NCBI GenBank assembly: GCA_016182655.1
Contig: JACPGB010000046.1
Coordinates: forward strand, 1-35,690
DNA length: 35,690 bases
Direction of reading: 5' to 3'
From: Deltaproteobacteria bacterium
GTDB taxonomy: Bacteria; Desulfobacterota; GWC2-55-46
The notes beneath the pieces were generated by a model that had not been told where the DNA came from, did no database searches, and saw only the letters and a program-made list of their open reading frames with translations. Below, in pieces: positions 13,139 to 31,687 of this stretch; position 1 is the stretch's first letter; the number at the start of each line of letters is the position of its first letter. The position numbers and the translations under genes are program-made.

Positions 13139-13161
13139 CCGACAAAAACAAAATGGTTGAG

Positions 13162-13190
13162 AATCCCCTCCTCCGGAGGGGATTTTTTTT
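13162..13190 (+). terminator. Intrinsic terminator after pyrD
   Basis: A near-perfect stem AATCCCCTCC / GGAGGGGATT is followed by eight T residues, then GTTTAA. The same stem type and the same TTTTTTGTTTAA tail occur after asd. Confidence 0.9.
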
Positions 13191-13243
13191 GTTTAACCGG
13201 CCGCAAAAAAATGCGAGAGGATGAATGAGGATTGTTCCTGTCT

Positions 13244-13274
13244 TAATTTTCCCCTAATCTCCGTAGAGTATAAT
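13244..13274 (+). promoter_or_regulatory. Promoter with 15-base upstream element, site C of a shared set
   Basis: TAATTTTCCCCTAAT (13244-13258), exactly ten bases, then TATAAT (13269-13274) followed by GG. The same arrangement precedes two of the 27-residue peptide genes at 31 kb: 13 of 15 element bases match one of them and 12 of 15 the other. No TTGACA-like -35 is present; the element occupies the -35 region. The CTAAT units repeat about every 11 bases at the 31-kb sites, a spacing used by OmpR/PhoB-family activators. Confidence 0.6.
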
Positions 13275-13337
13275 GGTAATCAGAAAAGGCAGTAAAGGCA
13301 ATGGTGCCGGACGGACGCAAGAGAAGGAGGAAAGAAC

Positions 13338-13457
13338 ATGGACAAAGAGATAAAGATAGCGGAGAGGATTTATGTCGCGGTGGTTGCGGTGCTCTCCACA
13401 GGCATGCTCGTAGGCGCGGCGTTCCTGAGCAATATCCCGCAGAGCTTCTACGCCTAA
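13338..13457 (+). CDS. 39-residue predicted single-pass membrane peptide
   Basis: The ATG at 13338 follows a strong ribosome-binding site (AAGGAGG, spacing 7). The peptide begins with the charged MDKEIKIAER, has one hydrophobic helix (about residues 11-30, rich in Val, Ala, Leu and Gly), and ends SNIPQSFYA. It has its own promoter with the shared 15-base element and its own strong terminator, so it is a complete monocistronic unit of about 225 bases between pyrD and mrp. I recognise no family. The layout (short charged head, one helix, tiny tail) resembles the 27-29-residue peptides at 31 kb, but the sequences are not clearly homologous. Its role is unknown; stress-induced membrane peptides or accessory subunits of membrane complexes are possible analogues. 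Confidence 0.75.
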   Translation: MDKEIKIAERIYVAVVAVLSTGMLVGAAFLSNIPQSFYA

Positions 13458-13471
13458 GCGGGAAAATCGAA

Positions 13472-13507
13472 AAAAAGGGCCGGAGGGGTTTTCCTCCGGC
13501 CCTTTTT
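13472..13507 (+). terminator. Strong intrinsic terminator after the 39-residue peptide gene
   Basis: AAAAAGGGCCGGAGG pairs perfectly with CCTCCGGCCCTTTTT around a GGTTTT-type loop. The A and T runs on the two sides make it bidirectional, so it could also end the minus-strand mrp transcript. Confidence 0.92.
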
Positions 13508-13541
13508 GAATTTCAGTGTCTGCGGCGTTTTGCGACTTTAT

Positions 13542-13570
13542 GAGATTGCTTCGCTTCGCTCGCAATGACA
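13542..13570. repeat. Short form of the TGTCATTGCGAG repeat
   Basis: GAGATTGCTTCG...CTCGCAATGACA is the minimal palindromic half of the element seen in full at 28823-28979. It lies just past the mrp stop codon. Confidence 0.55.
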
Positions 13571-13580
13571 GTGTGAGTGG

Positions 13581-31200: not shown

Positions 31201-31226
31201 GGCGCCCTTGTTAAATCCGGGCGCCT
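31201..31226. terminator. Hairpin between convergent CGGC and micropeptide genes
   Basis: GGCGCCC (31201-31207) pairs with GGGCGCC (31220-31226) around an AT-containing loop. It lies between convergent transcripts and overlaps the last codons of the 29-residue peptide gene. There is no T-run on either strand, so it would be a weak terminator. Confidence 0.4.
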
Positions 31227-31314
31227 ACGCGATGAGGTTAAGGGCGCTTACGGCTACGATTACGGCGATTACGGCTACACTTGCGGCTATCTCGAATACG
31301 GTCTTGTTTTTCAT
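31225..31314 (-). CDS. 29-residue membrane micropeptide, paralogue 3
   Basis: Thirty codons run from the ATG at 31314 to the TAG at 31227-31225, behind AGGAGAAGAAAGAA. The product starts MKNKTVFEIAAS and continues as an almost purely Val/Ala/Ile helix ending VAVSALNLIA. It shares the F-E, A-S and VAVSA-[IL]-N positions with the two 27-residue peptides upstream on the same strand. It lies 26 bases downstream of the second of these and has no promoter of its own, so the two probably form a bicistronic unit. It is far below usual annotation limits. A single membrane-spanning helix is predicted; the function is unknown. Confidence 0.75.
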   Translation of the reverse strand: MKNKTVFEIAASVAVIAVIVAVSALNLIA

Positions 31315-31340
31315 TTCTTTCTTCTCCTGCTCGTTGACTG

Positions 31341-31424
31341 TTAGATAACGAAGTTGATGGCGCTTACGGCTACGAGGGTCACTATCACGGCGAGGCTCGC
31401 TACGGTTTCGAATATCCTTGTCAT
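31341..31424 (-). CDS. 27-residue membrane micropeptide, paralogue 2
   Basis: Twenty-eight codons run from the ATG at 31424, behind AAGGAGAAAACAAA. The product starts MTRIFETVASLAVIV and ends VAVSAINFVI. It differs from paralogue 1 at six of 84 bases; four are synonymous, which suggests selection on the peptide. It has a three-residue basic head and one hydrophobic helix long enough to span the membrane. Its upstream region (15-base element, ten bases, TATAAT, about 39-base leader) is also shared with paralogue 1, so gene and promoter were duplicated together. The function is unknown; the shape resembles small stress-linked membrane proteins and type I toxin peptides. Confidence 0.8.
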   Translation of the reverse strand: MTRIFETVASLAVIVTLVAVSAINFVI

Positions 31425-31469
31425 TTTGTTTTCTCCTTGTGTTTGGTTTGTGTTGCGTCTTATGGCTCT

Positions 31470-31500
31470 ATTATACTGAACAAGTATTAGAGGATTATTA
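31470..31500 (-). promoter_or_regulatory. Promoter with 15-base upstream element, site B (paralogues 2 and 3)
   Basis: On the minus strand, TAATAATCCTCTAAT (31500-31486), ten bases, then TATAAT (31475-31470). It is the same layout as at 31657 and 13244. CTAAT occurs twice, 11 bases apart. Confidence 0.65.
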
Positions 31501-31503
31501 GGC

Positions 31504-31521
31504 CGGGCCCTCATGGGCCCC
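31504..31521. terminator. Palindromic hairpin between micropeptide genes 1 and 2
   Basis: GGGCCC, TCAT, GGGCCC forms a strong short hairpin just past the stop of paralogue 1 on the minus strand. There is no T-run, so termination would be partial. Confidence 0.4.
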
Positions 31522-31526
31522 GAAAC

Positions 31527-31610
31527 TTACATCACGAAGTTGATGGCGCTTACGGCTACGAGGGTCACTATCACGGTAAGGCTGGCTACGGTTTCGAATA
31601 TCCTGGTCAT
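31527..31610 (-). CDS. 27-residue membrane micropeptide, paralogue 1
   Basis: Twenty-eight codons run from the ATG at 31610, with AAAGGAGAAAACAAA before it. The product starts MTRIFETVASLTVIV and ends VAVSAINFVM, nearly identical to paralogue 2 (Ala-12 to Thr, last Ile to Met). It is predicted to be one membrane helix with a positive N-terminus, so the C-terminus would face out under the positive-inside rule. It has its own promoter with the shared element. It sits inside the quinone gene block on the opposite strand, between the CGGC gene and ubiE, but the regulatory match to the 39-residue peptide gene points to a separate regulon. Confidence 0.8.
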   Translation of the reverse strand: MTRIFETVASLTVIVTLVAVSAINFVM

Positions 31611-31656
31611 TTTGTTTTCTCCTTTGTTTTTGGTTTGTGTTGCATCTTATGGTTCC

Positions 31657-31687
31657 ATTATACTCAAACAAAATTAGAGGAATATTA
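31657..31687 (-). promoter_or_regulatory. Promoter with 15-base upstream element, site A (paralogue 1)
   Basis: On the minus strand, TAATATTCCTCTAAT (31687-31673), ten bases, then TATAAT (31662-31657) followed by GG. The leader to the ATG is about 40 bases. Thirteen of 15 element bases match the site at 13244. Confidence 0.65.

Follow-up and report, generated by a model that had tools for sequence, protein, structure and literature searches.

Single micropeptides are known in two-component regulons, and the regulatory membrane peptides credited to most known two-component systems number one or a few. Regulators of the OmpR family bind tandem half-sites head to tail. Among the closest described peptides, PmrR is a membrane peptide under PmrA control and inhibits LpxT (PMC8129183), MgrB, with 47 amino acids, is regulated by PhoP and inhibits PhoQ (PMC2789325), and KdpF, with 30 amino acids, is regulated by KdpDE (PMC3618439). 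The DNA target of one such regulator, PmrA of K. pneumoniae, has been defined as CTTAAT-N5-CCTAAG (PMC3973317). A regulon in which micropeptides are the commonest product, fall into many groups and form tandem arrays was not found in the open-licence literature searched.

An unannotated 39-codon frame between pyrD and mrp in a 35,690-nucleotide stretch of DNA from Deltaproteobacteria bacterium (the whole stretch is hereafter called the window) invites comparison with each of these systems. As with PmrR, the product is a tiny membrane peptide and the predicted regulator belongs to the OmpR family and would read CTTAAT-type direct repeats; unlike PmrR, to which it has no recognised homology, it is one of many peptides per system, no equivalog of PmrA is present and no lipid A genes were seen among the targets of the box. 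With MgrB it shares the character of a small inner-membrane peptide from a two-component regulon, whereas MgrB is a single peptide and there is no sequence family match. KdpF, to which there is no sequence homology either, is likewise a single-helix peptide under an OmpR-family system, but it is co-transcribed with the complex that it is thought to stabilise, whereas the units described here stand alone or in arrays.

The gene for the 39-amino acid peptide (MDKEIKIAERIYVAVVAVLSTGMLVGAAFLSNIPQSFYA, referred to below as type A) occupies positions 13338..13457 of the forward strand, an assignment supported by the frame, its homologues, the AlphaFold model and the dN/dS values, and is convergent with mrp. 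The frame, the Shine-Dalgarno sequence AAGGAGG (13324..13330, forward strand, 7 nt 5' of the ATG) and the -10 element TATAAT (13269..13274, forward strand) are all present as described in the original prediction; a GG follows the -10 element here and in the majority of sister promoters (consensus GTATAATGGA), and the position of the element agrees with the transcription start near 13281 that had been predicted from the sequence. The pyrD terminator, invoked as an insulator of the unit, was located at 13159..13187 (forward strand). The proposed promoter needs one correction: the usual -35 element is missing, with a direct-repeat box of the activator type in place of any consensus -35, and a sigma-70 scan did not list this promoter. 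Similarly, the 15-bp hairpin terminator claimed for the unit does exist (13472..13507, no strand assigned, common to the convergent mrp) but is not specific to it. The genome G003 belongs to the same genus, and its pyrD and mrp are syntenic and 84% and 87% identical to those of this genome. There the peptide is absent from the pyrD-mrp junction, the gap being filled by another frame of ~74 amino acids that is lipoprotein-like, and yet the hairpin is kept at 90% between the two genes. Because it is conserved without the peptide, the hairpin is better read as a terminator belonging to the convergent junction, and the absence of the peptide from this position in G003 implies that the unit comes and goes at the pyrD-mrp locus.

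Conservation of the frame, proposed as a check of the gene, thus fails between pyrD and mrp of G003 but is met elsewhere in the family. A search of 59 related genomes revealed homologues with 49-60% identity in other genera of the same GTDB family, the best being 56% identical across all 39 residues (E 6e-10); G022 and G015 carry two or three type A copies in tandem. For four homologues the named records are MAGs carrying the label Deltaproteobacteria bacterium; three of these MAGs belong to a groundwater series. Type A genes have dN of 0.15-0.41 against dS of 0.9-2.9, a ratio of ~0.1-0.2, with changes favouring third positions, although dS is saturated for distant pairs. The single hydrophobic helix noticed at the outset is reproduced by AlphaFold (residues 3-31, mean pLDDT 84.5), and with a maximum 17-residue hydropathy of 2.25 the peptide qualifies as a product of <50 amino acids with one transmembrane helix. 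The lack of recognised relatives was also borne out, no profile in Pfam or NCBIfam matching the peptide; representative sister peptides, when scanned, gave no Pfam or NCBIfam match either, apart from one sub-threshold chance match. With the frame conserved outside this strain, subject to purifying selection and preceded by a conserved promoter, the view that annotation had missed a real gene is virtually certain to be correct. Profile searches also uncovered a sister group, type B (WKDKEFRHADEVYIAVV), with a 30-residue core that can be aligned to type A (hhalign probability 98). Type B peptides were considered as members of the regulon described below and rejected, since the copies read, although homologous to type A, have no box. 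Two tandem type B peptides without a TAAT box lie near a predicted membrane sensor-like gene (G000:C13:39073-39472, L061), and type B peptides are found in another family of the class too.

The box upstream of the 39-codon gene, CTTAAT-TTTCC-CCTAAT (13242..13258, forward strand), consists of half-sites at 13242-13247 and 13253-13258 with an 11-bp period, which is the putative site of a response regulator and has the same 5 bp gap between half-sites as the PmrA box. It has the form TTAAT-N6-CTAAT at a fixed spacing to the -10 element, and all box-bearing type A copies contain two such TAAT elements 11 bp apart at a constant distance from the -10, except that one copy has TAAC as its first element; the logo of the peptide promoters reads TCTAATaaTCCttTAATCT...GTATAATGGA. 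Matches to the pattern TAAYN7TAAYN10TANNAT number 11 in this genome vs 0 in the reversed control, and 3-12 vs 0-1 in the control in six relatives. The TANAAT form of the pattern gives ~110 matches vs 3 in the control across 30 genomes of the family, and a strict form hardly occurs in the rest of the phylum, with matches among 247 genomes in two of this family and two outside it. The 39-codon gene thereby satisfies the direct-repeat definition of the box on comparative evidence alone, and we hold its membership of the regulon with high confidence. The looser pattern also matches PhoB-type sites (TAACA repeats), so that some mixing is possible. These sites define a Pho-type regulon of their own, in which TAACA direct repeats precede phoB (G000:C26:22000-29000, which is L085; also L176 and L115), and both G002 and G006 encode a short Cys-rich protein (MECPYLE...) between a Pho-type box and a porin O/P-like gene.

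A Shine-Dalgarno sequence, an ATG and a hydrophobic frame of 22-45 amino acids follow within 100 nt in 46 of 82 TAAT/TAAT sites (56%), vs 18 of 970 other -10-like sites at the same loci (1.9%; Fisher p = 6e-43). The remaining ~44% have no recognised micropeptide, and some of them drive larger genes. This genome contains at least 11 box-driven peptides: three at 31225-31610 and another three on C50, two on C16, and single ones at 13338, on C47 and on C51. The unit that had been called stand-alone is so at 13338-13457 but is one member of a large co-regulated set. The second group in the window is an array on the reverse strand (31225-31687) of unannotated peptides, flanked by a CGGC-domain gene and ubiE and syntenic in G003. 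It comprises a promoter of the same type, identified by its match to the box pattern (31657..31687), a 27-amino acid membrane peptide (MTRIFETVASLTVIVTLVAVSAINFVM, 31527..31610) supported by synteny in G003, a third promoter matching the pattern (31470..31500), a further 27-amino acid membrane peptide (MTRIFETVASLAVIVTLVAVSAINFVI, 31341..31424) and, in tandem downstream of it, a 29-amino acid membrane peptide (MKNKTVFEIAASVAVIAVIVAVSALNLIA, 31225..31314). By sequence, the box-driven peptides form several groups, and in many an acidic residue directly precedes the helix (FE, VYD); changes between paralogues and orthologues are mostly silent, with dN/dS often 0.05-0.2. A crude scan detected terminators 3' of 14 of 51 peptides vs 24 of 300 random positions, so that having its own terminator does not strongly mark such a unit in general. 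Further targets of the box include genes for CcdA, a PPIase-like protein, lipoproteins and, in several genera, a TlpA-like thioredoxin. By comparison across genomes, the 39-codon gene, the box, the regulon and the presence of the box before the operon of the proposed regulator (see below) are all well supported, and the commonest product of the regulon is predicted to be single-helix membrane micropeptides. A soluble family of 55-65 amino acids (M...KM...E..TF(E/D)(D/E)...), one member of which was scanned without a Pfam match, also occurs repeatedly behind TAAT/TAAT or TAAC/TAAT boxes (L124, L188, L190, L192, L199 and L253).

Only four OmpR-family regulators are encoded in this genome, and one of them (G000:C57) forms an operon with a histidine kinase and cytochrome b561. 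It is assigned to the OmpR/PhoB family by its receiver (103.6 bits) and Trans_reg_C (86.4 bits) domains, both above the cut-off. Its orthologues (76% identity or more) occur in 21 of 30 family genomes, and each of these 21 has a TAAT-N7-TAAT box directly 5' of the operon, accompanied in most cases by a -10-like element; a second box often precedes a HAD-like gene downstream. TAAT/TAAT sites are found in 21/21 genomes with an orthologue and are missing from 5/9 without one (p = 9e-4), in a test that counts related genomes as independent. The five genomes lacking both all belong to genus g6, a further member of which, G029, has both. Boxes without an identified orthologue occur in G003, G011, G016 and G022; the G022 and G016 assemblies are incomplete or fragmented, and in G003, which has boxes and peptides, none was found even at contig ends. 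The regulator scores 188.6 bits against the PmrA model NF007928, far under the curated cut-off of 330, and its best model is the CzcR/SilR/CopR model TIGR01387 (261.1 bits, just under the cut-off of 279.2), followed by that of the peroxide regulator HprR; the kinase scores 266.3 bits against TIGR01386 (cut-off 292.6). A CpxR-like envelope regulator had no specific support, the nearest NCBIfam model being of the CopR/CusR type. Control of the box regulon by the C57 regulator, inferred without binding or expression data, is likely. Envelope redox or metal stress is suggested as the signal, without being shown, by the proximity to the heavy-metal/peroxide class of kinases and regulators and by the thioredoxin, CcdA and cytochrome b561 genes that the regulon contains or adjoins.

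The 11-bp repeat had prompted the reading that the gene belongs to phosphate starvation (PhoB) and not to a separate regulon, given that PhoB sites of the same genome share both this period and the 15-nt distance to the -10 element and that in G006 a porin O/P-like gene follows one of the type A copies. This reading was dropped as very unlikely because the boxes differ, Pho sites having TAACA with TAGAAT and peptide sites TAATC with TATAATGG, and so do the phylogenetic distributions, genus g6 retaining the PhoB site without any TAAT/TAAT sites or C57 regulator. That the frame is functionless and merely marks a leader peptide or non-coding RNA is scarcely credible: the transcript unit is short and a terminator closely follows the frame, but no sense gene lies downstream of it and conservation extends to the codon level in other genera.

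Known type I toxins are of comparable size and have one helix and tandem copies, which the peptide shares with them. Nonetheless, a small hydrophobic toxin under an antisense RNA is highly improbable here, as a consensus scan revealed no antisense promoter-like site either across the frame or 3' of it, the window has no Rfam match, and the sense promoter is strong and regulated with an exposed strong ribosome site. The micropeptides could instead be bulk components of a membrane-stress response, interchangeable helices that alter the bilayer without specific partners. The number of box-driven peptides in one genome, in several families sharing little sequence, together with tandem copies, locus turnover and strong ribosome sites, is in keeping with this possibility, which we nevertheless consider unlikely. 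Their residues are under purifying selection and polar motifs are conserved at the membrane edge (DRExKIAN..Y; FE or VYD before the helix), which suggests specific contacts; action through specific partners, not shown and argued by analogy, is accordingly somewhat favoured.

We therefore consider it probable that the 39-codon frame is a regulon gene encoding a box-controlled membrane peptide that contacts a membrane protein partner, the last element resting on analogy only. In this scheme, the phosphorylated OmpR-family regulator would recruit polymerase to the weak promoter, a step for which DNA binding is inferred from the nearly identical box bound by PmrA of the same family. Translation of the peptide (expression being likewise inferred) would then start from the strong ribosome site of a short leader. 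The peptide is predicted to insert in the inner membrane in an orientation that places the charged N-terminus (MDKEIKIAER) inside and the SFYA tail outside, and might contact a membrane protein as PmrR does LpxT and MgrB does PhoQ.

As a single two-component system apparently activates the box, the whole micropeptide battery seems to be under one sensor; in sequence types it amounts to dozens across the family, none matched by Pfam or NCBIfam. That this two-component system of an uncultured bacterial family has tandem, fast-diversifying micropeptides of two to four dozen amino acids as its commonest output, and that these jointly provide an undescribed kind of envelope response, can be proposed only tentatively. 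The promoter box offers a route to genes too short for gene callers, and the role of stress-induced membrane micropeptides becomes testable as a set. Near the 39-codon gene, the window also contains a short interspersed repeat (13540-13572, GAGATTGCTTCGCTTCGCTCGCAATGACA) with dozens of copies in this genome and its relatives.
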